NCBI GenBank assembly: GCA_947457465.1
Contig: CANGWB010000002.1
Span: forward strand, 124,001-188,000
Source of the DNA: Chitinophagaceae bacterium
Lineage (GTDB): Bacteria; Bacteroidota; Bacteroidia; Chitinophagales; Chitinophagaceae
Direction: 5' to 3'
Length of the DNA stretch: 64,000 bases
Part shown: piece by piece, positions 10,156 to 35,804 of the stretch
Layout: each line of letters begins with the position of its first letter
Numbering within the stretch: position 1 is the first letter of the stretch
Position numbers and translations under genes: made by a program
Notes under the pieces: model-generated
What the model was told of the DNA's origin: nothing
Database searches by the model: none
The model's input: only the letters and a program-made list of their open reading frames with translations

Positions 10156-12561
10156 GTGAGCTATTCCATCTCGACCATATGCAAAATTTTGACAGGTGCG
10201 ACCGTATCACTGGATCAGAACCATGTGATCACAGAACTGATAATCGATTCCCGTAAGATCACTCCGGCGGAAAAGCTCAATCATTTTCCCGATATCAACG
10301 ATTATCCGAGGAATAATTTATTCTTCGCACTGATAACTGATCGTCGGAACGGACATGATTTTATTCCAGCTGCCTATGCCGCAGGCATTCGGGCTTTCGT
10401 GGTGAGTCAGTATGTCGACAGTTCCTTATTCCCAGAAGCTTTTTTTATCAGTGTGGCGGATACGCTGGATGCTTTACAAATGCTGGCTGCTCATCACCGA
10501 TCGCAGTTTCAGTATCCGGTTATCGGTATAACCGGTAGCAACGGGAAAACGATTGTGAAAGAGTGGTTGTATCAGTTATTGAACTTGGATTATCGGATCG
10601 TTCGATCTCCGCGCAGTTATAATTCACAGATCGGTGTTCCACTGAGTGTGTGGCGGATGAGTCATCTGCATGACTTAGCCATTTTTGAAGCCGGAATATC
10701 CAAAGCGGGGGAGATGGAAAAGTTGGCTGCGATCATTCGTCCCACGATCGGCGTATTGACCAATATAGGTGCGGCACACGATGAGGGCTTCGCCTCCCGT
10801 GCAGATAAGGAAACTGAGAAGCAAAAGTTATTTGAAGGCGCAAACATTCCGGAATCCATTGAGGTGGCTGATCGTGTTGTAGAAGGCGGCATGACAAGAA
10901 TTACGGATCGAGGAGGAGAAGTGATTCTAATTCCTTTTACCGATGAGGCATCTGTTCAAAATGCGTTAACCTGTTGGTCGGTGATGCGTCACCTGGGCTA
11001 TTCTATCGAAACCATCGCTCTGCGTATGCTATCACTACAGCCGGTACAGATGCGGCTCGAGATCAAGCGTGGGATCAACCAATGCTTGCTTCTGAATGAT
11101 GCATACAGCATGGATCTGGATTCGCTTAACATTGCCTTGGCACATCTTCGTCAACAGTCGGGTGATTTGCCACGTACTGCTATACTCACGGATCTGCCGG
11201 GGGGTGGAGTTCCTGAATACGATCAATTGATTCGCTACTTGTTGCAGCATCAGTTGCATCGTTTGATCACGATCGGTCCCGCTTTCCAGCAGTATCTGGC
11301 GGATAAGCGTTATTCGAATCTGATTGTTACATCCTATCCCGACCGGGACAGTTTTGAGAGTCATTTCTCCTCACGTTCGTTTCATCAGGAGGCCATATTG
11401 ATCAAAGGGGCTCGCCGTTTTCAAATGGATAAACTTCTTTCGCTGCTGGAAGCACAATTGCACCAGACGCGAATGGAGATCGATCTGGGAGCATTACGAC
11501 ATAATATCCAAGCCTATCAATCTGTATTGAAGTCGGGCGTGAAGATCATGGCCATGGTGAAATCATTTGCCTACGGCAGCGGCGGCGTGGAGATTGCCCG
11601 GGTGATGCAAGAAGAGGGGATTGCCTATCTGGGTGTTGCCTATGCGGATGAAGGAGTGGCCTTGCGAACGGGAGGTATACGTATCCCGATCATGGTCATG
11701 AATACAGAACCCGCTGCTTTCGATGCAATCGTCGAGCATCGATTAGAGCCTGTCTTGTACTCGATGGAAATGGTACATACATTCCGACAGTATTTGCGCA
11801 GCCAAGGGGAGTTGCATTATCCGGTGCATATTGAAGTAGAGACCGGTATGAATCGTTTAGGTATTGCGGAGTCTGAACTCGATGAATTAATAGAGGGGGT
11901 GTTGATCGGAAATGAATTTCAGATAAGCTCTGTGTTTTCGCATTTCACGTCTGGTGAAGAGGTGGGAGGAGATGATTTTTCTGCTTTACAAGTAACGCGA
12001 CTGAATAGAGCAATTGATCATATCTGTACGGTGCACGGGAATACATTCATTCGTCACATCGCGAATTCAGCGGCCGCCATTCGACATCCTGAGTGGCAAA
12101 TGGACATGGTGCGTATCGGAATCGGATTGTATGGCATCGATCCGGCGGTTTCGGATAAAATACAATTGAATCCTGTTGCTAGGTTATTGGCAACCGTTGC
12201 TCAATTGAAAGACCTGAAGCCGGGCGATTCAGTTAGTTATAATCGGAAAATGATCGCGGATCGTCCGATGCGGATCGCCACGATACGGTTGGGTTATGCG
12301 GATGGATTTCCGCGTCGCTTGGGAAATGGTGTGGGATCAGTGATCTTACATGGGAAGCGGGCGCCGGTAGTGGGTACGGTGTGTATGGATATGTTCATGG
12401 TCGATGTATCGGACATTCCCGCTGTGCAGGTCGGGGATGCAGCTATCATATTTGGTGCTGAATTGCCACTAACGGAATTGGCTAAACTCGCCGGAACGAT
12501 TCCTTATGAGATTATGACCGGGATCTCACAGCGGGTGAAACGGATCTATGTGGAGGAGTGA
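10156..12561 (+). CDS. Bifunctional MurF-alanine racemase fusion
   Basis: An 801-residue fusion of two peptidoglycan enzymes. Residues 1-435 are a MurF-type ligase with the ATP loop GITGSNGKT at 124-132; the C-terminal MurF domain is around 260-430. Residues 440-801 are alanine racemase, starting TRMEIDLGALRHN, with the PLP lysine K469 in MVKSFAYGSGG and the second catalytic tyrosine in GDSVSYNRKM. Making D-Ala and attaching D-Ala-D-Ala in one protein is a known Bacteroidota arrangement. The start is GTG at 10156; the nearby ATG at 10140 is out of frame. The MurF half diverges more from textbook motifs than the Alr half. Confidence 0.94.
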   Translation: MSYSISTICKILTGATVSLDQNHVITELIIDSRKITPAEKLNHFPDINDYPRNNLFFALITDRRNGHDFIPAAYAAGIRAFVVSQYVDSSLFPEAFFISVADTLDALQMLAAHHRSQFQYPVIGITGSNGKTIVKEWLYQLLNLDYRIVRSPRSYNSQIGVPLSVWRMSHLHDLAIFEAGISKAGEMEKLAAIIRPTIGVLTNIGAAHDEGFASRADKETEKQKLFEGANIPESIEVADRVVEGGMTRITDRGGEVILIPFTDEASVQNALTCWSVMRHLGYSIETIALRMLSLQPVQMRLEIKRGINQCLLLNDAYSMDLDSLNIALAHLRQQSGDLPRTAILTDLPGGGVPEYDQLIRYLLQHQLHRLITIGPAFQQYLADKRYSNLIVTSYPDRDSFESHFSSRSFHQEAILIKGARRFQMDKLLSLLEAQLHQTRMEIDLGALRHNIQAYQSVLKSGVKIMAMVKSFAYGSGGVEIARVMQEEGIAYLGVAYADEGVALRTGGIRIPIMVMNTEPAAFDAIVEHRLEPVLYSMEMVHTFRQYLRSQGELHYPVHIEVETGMNRLGIAESELDELIEGVLIGNEFQISSVFSHFTSGEEVGGDDFSALQVTRLNRAIDHICTVHGNTFIRHIANSAAAIRHPEWQMDMVRIGIGLYGIDPAVSDKIQLNPVARLLATVAQLKDLKPGDSVSYNRKMIADRPMRIATIRLGYADGFPRRLGNGVGSVILHGKRAPVVGTVCMDMFMVDVSDIPAVQVGDAAIIFGAELPLTELAKLAGTIPYEIMTGISQRVKRIYVEE

Positions 12562-12624
12562 TGAAAGATGAAGGGTGAAGCCTGCCTGCCGGCAGGGATG
12601 AAAGATGAGGGATGAAAGTTGAAA
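12560..12624. repeat. 7-bp periodic repeat interrupted by a GC-rich palindrome
   Basis: Seven-base units of the type GATGAAA (three before, four after) start on the murF-alr stop codon. Exactly between units, at 12581-12596, sits CCTGCCTGCCGGCAGG, whose last 12 bases are a perfect palindrome. The flanking 7-mers keep their unit boundaries on both sides. Confidence 0.75.
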
Positions 12625-12695
12625 TCAGTCAGTCAACTTAAAACATTACATACTGAACAATGAACTCTCATCGTTCAACTATCATCATTCAACTC

Positions 12696-13406: not shown

Positions 13407-13431
13407 ATAGTTTCTTTATGTCTCAACCACT

Positions 13432-13496
13432 CATCTTTCATCCTTCATCTTTCATCTCTCATCTCTCATCCTTCACCCTTCATCTCTCATCCTTCC
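13432..13496. repeat. 7-bp periodic repeat between lspA and fumC
   Basis: About nine head-to-tail 7-mers of the type CATCTTT/CATCCTT/CATCTCT fill the gap up to the fumC stop codon. This is the same family (opposite orientation) as the GATGAAA units after murF-alr and upstream of fumC. Confidence 0.75.
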
Positions 13497-14923: not shown

Positions 14924-14988
14924 GGATGAACGATGAAAGATGAAGGATGAAAGATGAAAATTCACCCTTCATCTTTCACCCTTCAACT
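14924..14988. repeat. 7-bp periodic repeat in two inverted blocks
   Basis: Five 7-mers of the type GGATGAA/AGATGAA (14924-14958) are followed after 2 bases by four 7-mers of opposite orientation, TTCACCC/TTCATCT/TTCAACT (14961-14988), able to fold into a hairpin. The last units contribute the final codons and stop of the enoyl-CoA hydratase gene. Confidence 0.8.
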
Positions 14989-16184: not shown

Positions 16185-16192
16185 CAAAGTTA
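16185..16192 (-). promoter_or_regulatory. Bacteroidota -7 box for the B12-binding gene
   Basis: TAACTTTG on the minus strand overlaps the gltX stop codon and ends 8 nt before the ATG at 16176. It suggests a separate transcript for the B12-binding and crotonase genes, with a very short or absent leader. Confidence 0.5.
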
Positions 16193-17707
16193 ATTGTTCG
16201 TCAATTGAGCAGTCAACACCTCGATCCGCCGAATCGTTTCCTCTTTTCCGAGAATGTCGGCGATATCGAATACACCCGGACCGAATTTTCCGCCCACCAA
16301 CATGATCCGCAGTGGCAACATCAACTCGCCGGGCTTGATCGCTTTTTCATCCGCCAGCGATTTGAAACTTGTCTCCAGTTCGATGGCGGTCCACTCTGCT
16401 AATGTCTCGTATCGTTGCATCAGCGTTCGAAAGAAATCCGTTTTTGCCTCATTCCATTTCGGTTGAATCGCTGCTACATCGACCGTCTTTGGGTATTCGA
16501 AGAAATAACTCGTTTGCTCCGCAAAATCCGTGAGCAAATGACATCGATCCTTAACCAATCCCACTATTTTTTCTAAACTTCCTAAACCTTCTAAGCCTCC
16601 TAAACTTTTCTCAACCCTCATCGCTAAACCCTCAACTGGAACCCGCTGTATCCAGGCATGATTGAACCACTTCGCTTTTTCATAATCAAATTTGGCACCG
16701 GCACTGTGTACCCGTTCCATGGAAAAGGCTTCAATCAATTCTTCCATGTAGAATATTTCTTTTTCAGTGCCATCATTCCATCCCAGCATGGCCAGCAGGT
16801 TGATGAATGCTTCGGGTAAGAAGCCGCGTTCGCGGAATCCTTCTACGGTTTCACCGGTCTTCGGATCGGTCCAGTTCATGGCAAACACCGGAAATCCGTA
16901 TTTAGCACCATCTCGTTTGCTGAGTTTTCCACTCGGGCCGAGTATCAGGGGTAAATGTGCCCACTGGGGCATGGCGTCACGACCGAATAATTTTTCCCAT
17001 AAACGTACATGAACAGGGGCGGAGGGAAGCCACTCCTCTCCCCGAAAAGCATGTGAGATCTGCATGAGATGATCGTCCACTACCACAGCCAGATGATAGG
17101 TAGGCATGCCATCGGCTTTCAGCAAAACTTTATCATCTACCGTGCTCATGTCGAACGAAACCTCACCCCGGATCATGTCGTTGAATGCGATGGTACCGGT
17201 GCCCGGCATGTTGATGCGGATCACGTGCGGGGTGCCGTCAGTAAGAAGAGAATCCACCTCCTCTTTTGACAGGGTCAGCGAGTTGCGCATCTTCAGTCGC
17301 AACGTATGGTCATATTGAGGGGAGGGGTTCTGCTCTGTCTTATAATTTTCGCGCATCGATTCCAGTTCGCCTGGGGTATCGAAGGCATAGTAGGCGTCGC
17401 CTTGTTCGATCAGTTTCTCTGCGTAGGTTCGATAAATCGGTTTTCTTTCGCTTTGGCGATAGGGACCGAAGGAGCCGCCGTGTTGTACGCTTTCATCGGG
17501 TTCGAGTCCGCACCAACGCAGGCAATCGAAAATATATTCTTCCGCTCCGGGCACATACCGGCTTTGGTCGGTGTCTTCGACCCGGACAATAAAGTCACCT
17601 CCGTGTTTTTTGGCAAAGAGGTAGTTGTAGAGAACGGTACGAACACCGCCGAGGTGTAGGCCTCCGGTTGGACTGGGCGCAAAGCGGACGCGGACTTTTT
17701 TCGACAT
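16190..17707 (-). CDS. gltX: Glutamyl-tRNA synthetase with an in-frame repeat insert
   Basis: A 505-residue class I aminoacyl-tRNA synthetase that charges tRNA-Glu. The HIGH-type motif is in [11 protein letters not shown] (residues 11-21) and the KMSKS-type loop is KLSKR (261-265). The anticodon-binding part follows. Residues 368-380 ([13 protein letters not shown]) are encoded by a 9-bp DNA repeat of the same family as the intergenic array at 2541-2610; because the unit is three codons long the frame is kept. This sits in the helical C-terminal half, where an insert can be tolerated. The start is fixed by a -7 box ending 4 nt upstream. Confidence 0.95.
16573..16608. repeat. 9-bp periodic repeat inside gltX
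   Basis: Four head-to-tail units CTAAACTTC, CTAAACCTT, CTAAGCCTC, CTAAACTTT lie within the gltX coding region. On the coding (minus) strand they encode alternating GLE/GLG/SLG triplets. The intergenic array at 2541-2610 uses the same unit. Confidence 0.8.
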
Positions 17708-32900: not shown

Positions 32901-35804
32901 CTGCCTGCTACCATCGACATGAGTGCTGGAGGCAGTTTCACATTCAACGCATCTGCAACGATCCCAGGTGACGTGAATACAGCCAATGACGCACTCGCTG
33001 CTGTTACCCTCACGGCTTCTGCGCAACCAACGGCTTCGATCAGCTATGCCGGTACATCCTATTGCGCCAGCTTGGTTGGAGCTCAACCCGTCACTTTTAC
33101 CGGTACAACCGGGGGAACCTTTAGTTCAACTGCTGGTCTTACTCTTGATGTAGCTACCGGATCAGTAACACCTTCCAGCAGTACAGCCGGTGCTTATACA
33201 GTAACCTATTCCATCGCTGCGGTCAATGGCTGTAATGCCGTTTCTGTTACGGCGCCTGTGGTAATCAATGCACTTCGTGATGCTTCATTCAATTACGGCG
33301 CAACCAATACCTTCTGTCAGACCGGAAGCAATCCAACAGCTACCATTACGGGAACGAGCGGCGGAATATTTACTTCAGCTCCTGCTGGATTATCGATCGA
33401 TGCAACCACCGGCGCAATCAACCTAGCTGCCAGTGCATTGAATTCATATACGGTTACCTATACTACACCCGGACCTTGTGCTGAGTCACTCACGCTCAAC
33501 ATCGCGGTAACAAGTGCTCCGTCTGCAAACTTTACGTATGCCAATACATCTTATTGTAGCAACGGTACAAACCCGACACCGGTATTCGGAGCCGGTGCGA
33601 GCGGTGGCGTATTCAGTGCCATACCTGCAGGCCTTTCAATCAACCCTTCGACCGGAGAGATCAACCTGTCAGCTAGTACGCCCGGAACATACACAGTGAA
33701 TAATTCGATCGCTGCATCAGGTGGCTGTGCATCTGCATCTGCTAATGCAACCATCACTGTTACTGCATTGCCACAGGCCTCTATCAGTTACGCCGGTGCT
33801 CCCTATTGCATCGGTAATACCAGCAATCAATCTGCTACACTGAGCGGAACCACGGGTGGTACATTCACTTCGTCACCAACTGGTCTTTCGATCAGCTCAT
33901 CAACCGGTGCCGTGCTCCCCTCGGGCAGCACTCCTGGCACTTATACAGTTAGCTATACCCTTGCAGCAGGAGGTGGTTGTCCGGCTGTTACAGCAACGAC
34001 TTCACTGATCATAAATCCACTTCCGGCAGCCAGTGTTTCTTATAGCGGTTCCCCTTTCTGTAATTCAGTGTCTGCTCCTCAGTCTGTCACTCAAACCGGC
34101 ACATTGGGTGGAGCCTATAGTGCTGCTCCTGTAGGATTGTCCATCGACCCAACGACGGGATCGATCACACCTTCTGCCAGTACGCCAGGCACCTATACTG
34201 TAACCTATTCTGTTGCGGCCACTGGAGGATGCGCTGCATTGAATGTTACCACATCCGTTACGATCACTGCCACACCTAGTGCAACATTCTCCTATGCAGG
34301 AACACCATTCTGTGCCTCTCTCACTACTGCGCAGGCAGTTTCCCTGACAGGTACATCAGGCGGTGTTTTCAGTGCACCAGCCGGATTGGTCATCAATGCT
34401 TCTACAGGGGCCATCACACCATCTGCCAGCACACCGGTTACATACACCGTAACGTATAGTATTGGGGCATCCGGTGGATGTGCTGCGTTCTCTACGACAT
34501 CGAATGTCACGATCACGGCGGTACCTCAGGCCTCTATACTCTATGCTTCATCGCCTTTCTGTACAACGGTGACCACCCCTCAACCAGTTAGCCTCACGGG
34601 CGTGGGAGGGGGTGCCTATAGTGCAAGTCCGGCTGGATTGAACCTGAATATCAACATCGGAACGATCGCTCCTTCTACCAGCACGCCTGGTTCTTATACC
34701 GTCAGTTACACCATTCCTGCTATTGCCGGTTGTCCGACTCGTGATGTAACGACACCGGTAACGATCACTCCTGCACCGACAGCCACCATCAGTTACACAG
34801 CTACTCCTTATTGTCAAGGTAGCGGATTGGCCACCGTAACAAGAACAGGTTCTTCGGGCGGTGCATATAGTTCAACAGCAGGTCTTGTGATCAATGCTTC
34901 TACCGGCGAGATCAATCTGAATACGAGTACACCGGGGACATACACCGTTACGTATTCGATCGCGGCAAGTGGCGGTTGTGCCGCCTTCAGCACCACTGCA
35001 ACGATCACCATCAATGCGCTTTCTCTAGCAGCCACTAGTGCAACTGTTACGCCTACCAGCTTCTGCGGTCCTACAAACATCACGCTCCGCACAGTCGGCG
35101 GTACGCTTGCACCCGGTGCCAGCTGGGTATGGTACAGCGGATCCTGTGGTGGTACACGTGTCGGTACCGGTGCTACATTGGCGTTGACCGGCATAAGCGC
35201 AACTACTACTTATTTCGTTCGTGCAGAGGGTGGAACCTGTGCCAATTCTGCTTGCGTATCTACAACCGTAACGATCAATACTGTACCAACGATTCAGATC
35301 GATGTACTGGGAGATACCAGCTTGTTGCCGGGTAGGACCTGTACGCTGATCGCAACAGCCAATCCGTTGAATGCAGCCAACACATTCGCTTGGTTCCTCA
35401 ATGGTACTCAGGTTACAGGTGCTACTGCCAGTTCACTGATCGTGGATGTTGACAAAGTCGGATTGTACACGGTACGGGTCACTACACCGAGTGGATGCAG
35501 TACTACCTCTGTCGGACGACGAATCAATGCGGCCGCTTCGGCCCAGGTATGGATCGCGCCGAATCCGAGCACCGGACGATTCCAGGTGCGTTTCTACTCG
35601 CGCGCGACCGTATTCAATTTCAAGCGAACCTTGCTTGTATACGATACACGTGGTGTGCTGGTACATTCCGTTACCGTACCGATCACCGGTCCGTATAGCA
35701 CCATCGATGTCGACCTGACCGCTAAACCAAGAGGCATGTACTTCTTGTTCCTGCGTAAGGAGAATGAGGAGAAACTCGGGGCGGGACGCATCTTCTTGTA
35801 TTGA
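29991..35804 (+). CDS. Giant T9SS-secreted multidomain protein with eight tandem domains
   Basis: A 1937-residue secreted protein. Signal peptide to about residue 25 (ending AQAQS). Then a beta-sandwich segment (to about 200), an Ig-like domain (about 205-310; FTVQGANLTTPLVVTPPAGFE), a G8-like beta-helical region starting GNWSSPSTWDGGIVPN (about 325 onward), a linker, eight tandem domains of about 83 residues (about 1012-1677), two further Ig-like domains, and a T9SS C-terminal sorting domain (WIAPNPSTGRFQVRF...KPRGMYFLF). Each repeat has a Y-C pair, a GTxGGxFS turn and a TPGTYTVTYSI strand. It is likely a surface adhesin or gliding-related protein. It begins 36 nt after the symporter but seems functionally separate. 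Confidence 0.88.
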   Translation: MFQRFFNRFYTLLLFVSLIGSAAQAQSVIFSENVGVPSATTLVNAYTGWQNNGLLTFTNGGQPTTSDARTSNASSGYAGASGGGNVFFTGVGSAVVGFAIEGINVSNYVNLTLDYAYRKESSTAHAPFAVDYWNGTAWVSVASTAANLFNEATTAATGWYLAKTLSLPAAAQINGLKLRFTRTGTNTLTIRIDDIVLKGIDASGPVIIPTTSSFNGSFEVINVGSSSASSSFTVQGANLTTPLVVTPPAGFEIRTGTNAFSTNPISFTPAAGAVPVTSIDVRFTPPAYNRYTGNITCTSAGATTINVPVSGNGAIKNIAVGNWSSPSTWDGGIVPNATQNVYINSAFPVTIDIPNAECKTIDFDAVGTSGLLIMGSSTSGLDVYGDFNLGNTTQMVFNTWPAGAKLRFKGNAATQTITGLNTGTTNSAGIMELVVDKSTGKLTTPGNNSKLTIGTSLEVVSGTFELGLADDIFGRDQAGATTLPTITIQSAGTFTIVSGGASQINAGSGSASGKIGKLTILGTAELSTTSSVGIQFSDVDVESGGTLRLMPNWFTSSTIGFNSGTITVKSGGTLRYSTTSTVLWSTASAVIMNDGSILNITTITAPTLAPTFTDNGATWRYNFAGNQDGVGISARSVKNLELSGGGIKTLAAAVTVNGLLSITETSSLSLGAGTLTYGSGATLQYGSATQVDAQTTSINEWPATGSVPPNVKVQNTGGLTLDASKTISGNLELAGGIVTLGNNSLSVASVTGGSASNYVATTGTGVFTVQSVGSTSVNFPVGNGSYTPMTISNSGASDDLSVNVSFGTPCDVNALNSVNRVWTLTEGTPGGSNATIGFQWNAAEENFGFTRSMINAVRCNGAAVDLVGQAAPASGSGPYTGSISGVTAFGPFGITNSVNDISLTALVAPVDGGCKTSTETVTVTIKNNSSFPVDLSKNNVTVSVATTGGYNSTVVLNTGTLLANGTQNVTLPATIDMSAGGSFTFNASATIPGDVNTANDALAAVTLTASAQPTASISYAGTSYCASLVGAQPVTFTGTTGGTFSSTAGLTLDVATGSVTPSSSTAGAYTVTYSIAAVNGCNAVSVTAPVVINALRDASFNYGATNTFCQTGSNPTATITGTSGGIFTSAPAGLSIDATTGAINLAASALNSYTVTYTTPGPCAESLTLNIAVTSAPSANFTYANTSYCSNGTNPTPVFGAGASGGVFSAIPAGLSINPSTGEINLSASTPGTYTVNNSIAASGGCASASANATITVTALPQASISYAGAPYCIGNTSNQSATLSGTTGGTFTSSPTGLSISSSTGAVLPSGSTPGTYTVSYTLAAGGGCPAVTATTSLIINPLPAASVSYSGSPFCNSVSAPQSVTQTGTLGGAYSAAPVGLSIDPTTGSITPSASTPGTYTVTYSVAATGGCAALNVTTSVTITATPSATFSYAGTPFCASLTTAQAVSLTGTSGGVFSAPAGLVINASTGAITPSASTPVTYTVTYSIGASGGCAAFSTTSNVTITAVPQASILYASSPFCTTVTTPQPVSLTGVGGGAYSASPAGLNLNINIGTIAPSTSTPGSYTVSYTIPAIAGCPTRDVTTPVTITPAPTATISYTATPYCQGSGLATVTRTGSSGGAYSSTAGLVINASTGEINLNTSTPGTYTVTYSIAASGGCAAFSTTATITINALSLAATSATVTPTSFCGPTNITLRTVGGTLAPGASWVWYSGSCGGTRVGTGATLALTGISATTTYFVRAEGGTCANSACVSTTVTINTVPTIQIDVLGDTSLLPGRTCTLIATANPLNAANTFAWFLNGTQVTGATASSLIVDVDKVGLYTVRVTTPSGCSTTSVGRRINAAASAQVWIAPNPSTGRFQVRFYSRATVFNFKRTLLVYDTRGVLVHSVTVPITGPYSTIDVDLTAKPRGMYFLFLRKENEEKLGAGRIFLY
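33024..35021 (+). repeat. Eight tandem coding repeats of about 250 bp
   Basis: Eight consecutive domains within the giant T9SS protein share the pattern SYAGTxYC - GTTGGxFSS - TGLSI - STGxIxPSxSTPGTYTVTYSIAAxGGC. Spacing is about 81-84 residues. Protein similarity is high but DNA copies have diverged, so the array is not a recent exact duplication. Confidence 0.85.

Follow-up and report, generated by a model that had tools for sequence, protein, structure and literature searches.

Short tandem repeat arrays in species-specific dialects between genes and inside gltX in a freshwater Chitinophagaceae bacterium and its relatives

Introduction

Rickettsia palindromic elements (RPE) are palindromic repeats that are found between genes and also in frame inside genes, as insertions of about 100-150 bp. 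In REPIN/RAYT systems, a short sequence with a genome-specific consensus occurs as inverted pairs between genes. Dispersed short tandem repeats form a broad kind, covered in parts of PMC4679880, PMC6749651 and PMC9879509. In the portion of MacGregor (2015, PMC4679880) devoted to them, TAACTGA heptamers are reported from Beggiatoaceae, Cyanobacteria and some Bacteroidetes, and protein binding is proposed.

The window (the whole stretch of 64,000 nucleotides analyzed here) covers positions 124001-188000 of contig 2 of G000, the 2.06-Mb genome (46 contigs) of a freshwater bacterium. The initial annotation held that an intergenic 9-bp repeat, also forming the array after iscA, had invaded gltX in frame and added residue triplets there, and it took this as pointing to a mobile or self-expanding repeat. 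Here, the gltX array is compared with intergenic arrays of the same genome and with those of its relatives, including the sister species G023 and G007. For arrays of the kind described below, no prior description in Chitinophagaceae or Bacteroidota was found in the open-access literature.

Results

The gltX array

The open reading frame gltX (16190-17707, minus strand) encodes a glutamate--tRNA ligase of 505 aa (TIGR00464, 457 bits; PF00749 and PF19269). Its residues 358-380 are encoded by a repeat array (16568-16636, minus strand), recognized from its sequence, its score under the species model and synonymous permutations. Read from 16636 to 16568, the array consists of the heptamers GTTGAGG, GTTTAGC and GATGAGG, which make up 21 bp and are therefore frame-neutral, followed by the 10-bp GTTGAGAAAA and four degenerate 9-mers. 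The latter, CTAAACTTC, CTAAACCTT, CTAAGCCTC and CTAAACTTT (16573-16608), lie in frame within S368-K380. The four tandem units first noted in gltX are therefore confirmed, within a longer array. The array beside iscA is built of the same degenerate unit, as had been proposed, but only the first gltX copy (CTAAACTTC) is exact.

This iscA-side array (2537-2610), downstream of an iscA-like gene (PF01521), has two inverted arms of the unit, the left one assigned to the minus strand (2537-2572; GTTTAGNNN on the plus strand) and the right one to the plus strand (2575-2610; CTAAACNNN). A U-tailed hairpin, read from the sequence, precedes it. Over the whole G000 genome, the double unit with at most three mismatches occurs at 31 places (10 for a reversed control), and three exact GTTTAG cores at 9-bp pitch occur at 10 partly overlapping places (control, 0).

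In a predicted structure of GltX (mean pLDDT 90.1, from a 36-row alignment), the array-coded residues are helical at 358-369, form a loop at 370-377 and then begin another helix; mean confidence is at its lowest in the model (67) over residues 371-380. According to Pfam, most of the array falls after the catalytic domain, which extends to residue 347, and before the match to the anticodon-binding domain, which starts at 377.

The GltX segment in relatives

The window's GltX was aligned with 91 loci (92 rows, 81 distinct proteins; 3 of 94 loci were too short). The named relatives belong to Chitinophagaceae and other Bacteroidota and include many MAGs. The conserved residues H350 and R388 are 38 residues apart in the window, the shortest spacing among the 81 distinct GltX; it is 42 in 61 of them, 41 in 14, 40 in three and 43 in G023 and G007. 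The window's segment is four residues below the commonest length and five below that of G023 and G007, and the partial sister sequence L063 (genome G058) is likewise five residues longer. The segment is hypervariable, with identities of 10/31 to G023 and 14/31 to G007, compared with 409/474 and 410/474 for the rest of GltX. In a tree of 34 GltX rows, the window, L063, G023 and G007 form one clade (support 100/100); all three sisters carry their own 9-bp array of the AGTTTGNNN type in this segment, in the same reading frame. In the small-genome congeners G003, G011, G013, G015, G016 and G022 (1.7-1.9 Mb), the gltX segment is without an array by eye, and none of the four exact patterns tried matched anywhere in these six genomes.

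The idea that the repeat invaded gltX and added triplets is not supported by these lengths, the window's segment being the shortest of 81 and those of G023 and G007, with their own 9-bp repeat, five residues longer. The alignment revealed no insert that the relatives lack; instead, they differ in both length and residues. An insertion of the RPE kind, relative to orthologues without it, does not appear among the 81 distinct proteins, and an insertion in gltX was accordingly rejected.

Other coding members

Called genes of G000, G023 and G007 were scored with a 6-mer model built from intergenic arrays only. Gene names were taken from NCBIfam, the HolB and E1 proteins being below curated cut-offs. 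The top internal windows in G000 were those of icmF (77.5), the holB-like gene (61.3) and gltX (59.9), with a reversed-sequence control maximum of 27.1. In G023 they were gltX (78.2), the holB-like gene (65.5), leuS (41.8) and an E1-dehydrogenase-like gene (39.6; control maximum 36.4), and in G007 gltX (83.1) and yggS (71.4; control maximum 64.3, next 33.1). Arrays are not peculiar to gltX, as the holB-like, icmF, yggS and E1-dehydrogenase-like genes carry them too.

The HolB-like protein has an array before CGxCPxC in G000, G023 and G007, each in its own dialect; among the 10 of 20 HolB rows recovered by regular expressions, the linker is short and without array in the six small-genome congeners, and long and without array in G018. 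The yggS array is of A-type in G007 and of G-type in G023. In icmF of G000 (contig 4, 103126-106479; L174:3126-6479), TCAACCC/TCATCCC heptamers encode the linker between the B12 and G domains; linkers differ in the other eight rows that were recovered (9 of 17 tried), one of which has AGTC-like units (G008). In leuS of G023 (contig 1, 72639-75428), a possible array lies at about residue 290, where the species' own dialect was not the best-scoring one.

Among the typed coding segments, the intergenic model of the same species scored best in 10 of 12, the exceptions being G023 leuS and, in G000, the E1 segment, where no array is clear. When codons were permuted synonymously by genome usage (5000 permutations per segment), none reached the observed score in six of eight segments, including gltX in each of the three species; the other two were the G000 holB-like segment (1/5000) and the G023 E1 segment (42/5000). 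Codon choice therefore does not explain the gltX match. The own-species scores and these permutations uphold the proposal that coding and intergenic arrays are one family at the DNA level.

They also bear on selection at the level of amino acids, according to which GltX would need a Gly/Ser-Leu-x repeat and the DNA repeat would be a by-product. Such a need would fit the xSLxSL/GLxGL-like peptides that are common in the segment of the window and its sisters. It is nevertheless extremely improbable, since the congeners carry other residues, TTA, a codon that accounts for 10% of Leu in the G000 sample, encodes all five leucines of residues 358-381, and the synonymous permutations for gltX gave 0/5000 in each of three species.

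Location of the intergenic arrays

The window contains further arrays between genes. A heptamer array TTCATCT/CTCATCY (13431-13495, plus strand) separates the signal peptidase II and fumarase genes, a junction that carries CAAACTNNN 9-mers in G023 and G007. An inverted heptamer array, GATGAAA ... TTCATCTTTCACCC (14925-14982, plus strand), lies upstream of fumarase, and a heptamer-built inverted repeat (12560-12694, plus strand), seen in the sequence and as short TRF rows, lies downstream of the gene ending at 12561. No Rfam family matched the window at gathering scores.

A motif-free scan was carried out on samples of 461 kb (G000, including 9441 bases that are N), 400 kb (G023) and 356 kb (G007); array hits guided the choice of the G007 sample, G000 contig 4 and a second G023 set. 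Periods 7 and 9 and multiples of them accounted for most of the excess, and G007 also showed some at period 8 (9 arrays); 8-mer over-representation was weak. Period-7 arrays were intergenic in 25/26 cases in G000, 21/22 in G023 and 25/25 in G007, and period-9 arrays in 7/8, 11/16 and 17/19, respectively, the G000 gltX array being below the threshold of this count. In these genome samples, short (5-11 bp) tandem units are dispersed and mainly intergenic. Gene calls were made with a purpose-written script, and several of the tests reported here were designed after the data had been seen.

In the G000 contig 1 spacers at 33830, 103404, 126161 and 180024, arrays end near TATATTYG/TAnnTTTG boxes upstream of start codons, which we take to be promoter-like. 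On G000 contig 4 (L173, L174), and similarly in G023 and G007, several genes end inside an array, which then codes for C-terminal residues such as ...VEKVERV*, ...ERMRDEG* and ...GTGFRV*.

Species dialects and shared sites

The exact triple GTTTAGNNN at 9-bp pitch was found at 10 places in G000 (control, 0) and at none in 57 relatives. The exact triple AGTTTGNNN at the same pitch was confined to G023 (62 places) and G007 (23 places), the other 56 genomes having none; since places overlap, loci are fewer than places. The reversed control of the AGTTTGNNN pattern gave 8 places in G023 and 18 in G007, where it is no clean null because the backwards pattern GTTTGANNN has nearly the same core. Among the 9-mer units of intergenic arrays, A stands at base 6 in 100% in G000 (n=23), and G in 100% in G023 (n=47) and 89% in G007 (n=73), while base 7 is G in 96% in G000 and 79% in G023, and A in 89% in G007. 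Detection by exact core fixes the core bases by construction; motif-free, lag-based detection gave the same cores. Read on the other strand, the three 9-mer cores are CCAAAC, CTAAAC and TCAAAC, one C-to-T step apart.

Two heptamer patterns, both picked from gltX segments, were searched for as triples. AGTCNGN was found at 109 places in G027, 88 in G012, 81 in G004, 14 in G021, 11 in G001 and 10 in G030, and at 1 to 3 places in each of nine further genomes. GTTTGAN was found at 23 places in G001 and at one each in G024 and G048. In G000, G023 and G007, gltX bears the genome's own unit, and so do the HolB-like and YggS genes. As the sisters have their own version of the repeat both between genes and inside gltX, something may hold each genome to one dialect.

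The match between gltX and its genome is not strict. G058, the nearest to the window in the GltX tree, has gltX units AGTTTGAAY; the predicted AGTTTGNNN triple was not found in exact form in its genome, although the test is coarse because this pattern would miss even G058's own gltX array. The one G058 spacer compared lies upstream of fumarase, and its heptamers resemble those of G000 at that junction. In G012, the gltX units are GTTGGAR, against 88 AGTCNGN places genome-wide. Among ten congeners with gltX heptamers, four fit their genome pattern (G001, G021, G027 and G030, with 3 of the 10 AGTCNGN places of G030 being gltX itself), G012 does not, and G009, G014, G018, G024 and G031 have too few genome places for comparison. 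Mismatches of the G058 and G012 type imply that a coding array can lag behind, or differ from, its genome.

Site sharing was assessed at collinear junctions with spacers of 30-600 bp, an array being defined by 14/18 lag matches (shuffled spacers gave 0). Between G000 and G023, arrays were present in 14 and 9 of 66 junctions, with 5 in common (P 0.017); between G000 and G007, in 7 and 7 of 37, with 5 in common (P 9e-4); and between G023 and G007, in 9 and 9 of 40, with 8 in common (P 1e-6). At a stricter threshold of 15, the sharing between G023 and G007 holds (P 6e-4), and that of G000 with G023 (P 0.10) and with G007 (P 0.38) is not significant. For 12 of 41 G023 9-mer arrays, a recognizable G007 interval was found. 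Seven of these are G-type in G023 versus A-type in G007 (two being the arms of one hairpin), three are of the same type, and two have 9-mers versus heptamers. At G023 contig 1, 221589, the spacers AT, GA and AT are the same in G007 and base 7 differs in 3/3 units, which could be due to chance at a single site.

Inverted pairs and folding

Oriented inverted pairs make up about two-fifths of the runs. The GTTTAG-type arm comes first in 48 pairs and second in 4, of which three are of the GACAT unit, whose reading direction was set by choice. Runs without inverted partner within 150 bp number 154, versus 52 pairs; these counts are approximate because some unit classes overlap. Another hairpin family, whose arms are of the GGGTTTAG type and whose loops span 32-57 bp, occurs in many spacers of G023 contig 1, and a third family of GACATYG heptamers is found on the same contig, some of them near GCGCAGCGGAC. 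Spacers with arrays fold better than their shuffles (mean z -3.16 in G000, n=10; -2.54 in G023, n=20), compared with -0.91 (G000, n=52) and -0.95 (G023, n=56, a random half) for spacers without arrays.

This folding, together with the mostly single orientation of the inverted arms, is what would be expected if the intergenic arrays were hairpin terminators or stabilizers of mRNA ends, with the dialect incidental and gltX a stray. Such a role is unlikely to account for the arrays, however. A U-tailed hairpin already stands before the iscA-side array, arrays also occur in divergent junctions, and many have no inverted partner. Convergent junctions are enriched in arrays in G000 (4/16 versus 10/150 others, P 0.03), but the enrichment fails in G023 (3/23 versus 25/170, P 1.0), and the dialects would be left unexplained.

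Copying and slippage

The order of units is not common to loci. Two-spacer runs shared between loci numbered 17 in G023 (21.8 expected) and 6 in G007 (4.1 expected), and three-spacer runs 1 (0.3 expected) and 0 (0.02 expected), respectively. Arrays of G023 keep a single base at position 7 in 28 of 40 cases (16 expected), and those of G007 in 11 of 17 (10.2 expected). By eye, a few arrays have a common GGCC just upstream. No Y1_Tnp transposase (PF01797) was found in G000, G007 or G023, whereas 31 of 58 genomes had a match; RAYT-driven spread finds no support in these three genomes.

A mobile repeat, copied and pasted from locus to locus in the manner of REPINs or RPE and at times landing in frame in genes, would agree with the dispersed, partly inverted arrays, some of them in the reading frames of core genes, and with the array-level homogeneity in G023. 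It is improbable in view of the lack of a common unit order, the window's gltX segment being the shortest and without insert, the missing Y1 transposase in all three genomes, and sites that are common to species.

Neighboring 9-mer units are no more often identical than expected (9/62 versus 8.6 in G023, 4/23 versus 3.1 in G007 and 0/10 versus 0.5 in G000). The same holds for neighboring heptamers in G000 (23/46 versus 21.9), those of G007 being uninformative with their one-base spacer. The mutS gene is present in G000 and in pieces on two contigs in G007 (34 genomes searched, G023 not among them), and loss of mismatch repair was rejected as a cause.

These observations weigh against drift of a satellite, in which slippage at periods 7 and 9 is tolerated in intergenic and variable coding DNA and the dialects reflect ancestry plus mutation bias. 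Such drift is consistent with several features: the excess chiefly at these two periods, the occurrence in spacers and variable segments, where indels are tolerated, the cores one C-to-T step apart, and the net shortening of the window's gltX segment, which fits slippage better than insertion. Moreover, where bacteria have long simple repeats, heptamers are in most of them the most frequent class, as stated in a passage of PMC4679880 citing Mrazek et al. It seems somewhat unlikely all the same, given that neighbors are no more alike than distant units, that one dialect spans many loci of a genome, that the unit family swaps at kept sites, and that G000 has mutS.

Of the initial reading as a whole, a mobile repeat invading gltX, the shared repeat family is supported, insertion is not, and mobility lacks support. 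Self-expansion or mobility finds no backing in unit order, in the likeness of neighbors or in a Y1/REP transposase in the three genomes. The count of array positions relative to genes that it had called for, made in sampled stretches of G000, G023 and G007, places them mainly in intergenic DNA.

Discussion

The arrays have a defined structure, occur in a dialect of their own in each of the three species sampled best, share sites between species, and match their genome in coding segments in most cases; copying and recent slippage lack support and fit these facts poorly. Taken together, the data are tentatively read, with a probability of roughly 0.4, as making the gltX array a coding member of fixed-pitch motif arrays in a species dialect, kept by a force that acts on the core motif. 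An array consists of a core of 5-7 bases that recurs every 7 or 9 bp, the spacer bases being free; most arrays lie between genes, at sites that are often kept between sisters while the core there differs by dialect. Inside genes, arrays survive in hypervariable segments when the frame is preserved by 9-bp units or by blocks of 21 bp; these segments are the GltX domain junction, the HolB-like linker before the Zn motif, YggS and the IcmF linker.

The dialect would be maintained by this force on the core, most likely through a hypothetical trans-acting DNA- or RNA-binding factor. The core preferred by the factor may have drifted between species. The gltX array would follow the dialect of its genome, at times late, as in G058, and the encoded part of the protein would be passive. 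The homogeneity of base 7 within G023 arrays also fits replacement array by array and counts against this explanation.

A dedicated writer is a very unlikely alternative: an enzyme or RNA-guided activity would lay down the species-specific core every 7 or 9 bp and leave the spacer bases degenerate. That such a writer acts at kept intergenic sites and variable protein segments, gradually rewriting the genome to its current dialect, is just as doubtful. The lack of unit copying between loci and of identity between neighbors are the traces expected from synthesis of this type.

If a genome-wide force can bring part of an aminoacyl-tRNA synthetase or of a clamp-loader subunit into line with non-coding repeats, some protein variation between species would be set by the DNA dialect and not by protein function. 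The sister species also offer a comparative system for studying how a genome holds its many short arrays to one dialect.

Among known systems, the arrays are set apart from RPE-like insertions because there is no insert, and from REPIN/RAYT because no transposase was found. They share with RPE the occurrence between genes and in frame within genes, but the segment in gltX is not inserted and consists of degenerate short units. With REPIN/RAYT they share a genome-specific consensus, and inverted pairs occur for part of the runs (52 pairs, against 154 runs without a partner); they form fixed-pitch tandem arrays, and the three genomes had no Y1 transposase match.

In a broad sense the arrays are dispersed short tandem repeats, although neighboring units are not identical as often as slippage would lead one to expect. 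Like the TAACTGA repeats, as far as the relevant part of PMC4679880 describes them, they include dispersed, mostly intergenic heptamer direct repeats with a minority in or overlapping ORFs. That account gives a single fixed unit in lineages far apart, located in the main species mostly close to start codons, whereas the arrays here are degenerate, of 7 and 9 bp, often with inverted arms, and differ between sister species. Borg tandem repeats, in the portion of PMC9879509 that treats them, likewise occur in spacers and ORFs, with lengths divisible by three in ORFs and in disordered segments. Borg units are near-perfect and nearly all unique to one locus, unlike the one degenerate dialect over many loci seen here.

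The DNA uptake sequence of Neisseriaceae, as presented in part of PMC3630211, resembles the arrays in having dialects of one short motif between related species, intragenic copies, inverted pairs capable of forming stem-loops and a place in permissive intergenic regions. The uptake sequence is not organized in fixed-pitch tandem arrays, and its role in uptake is shown there. The arrays are not assigned to this system. By analogy, a force at the level of the motif would work like that behind the uptake sequence dialects described in that part of PMC3630211.
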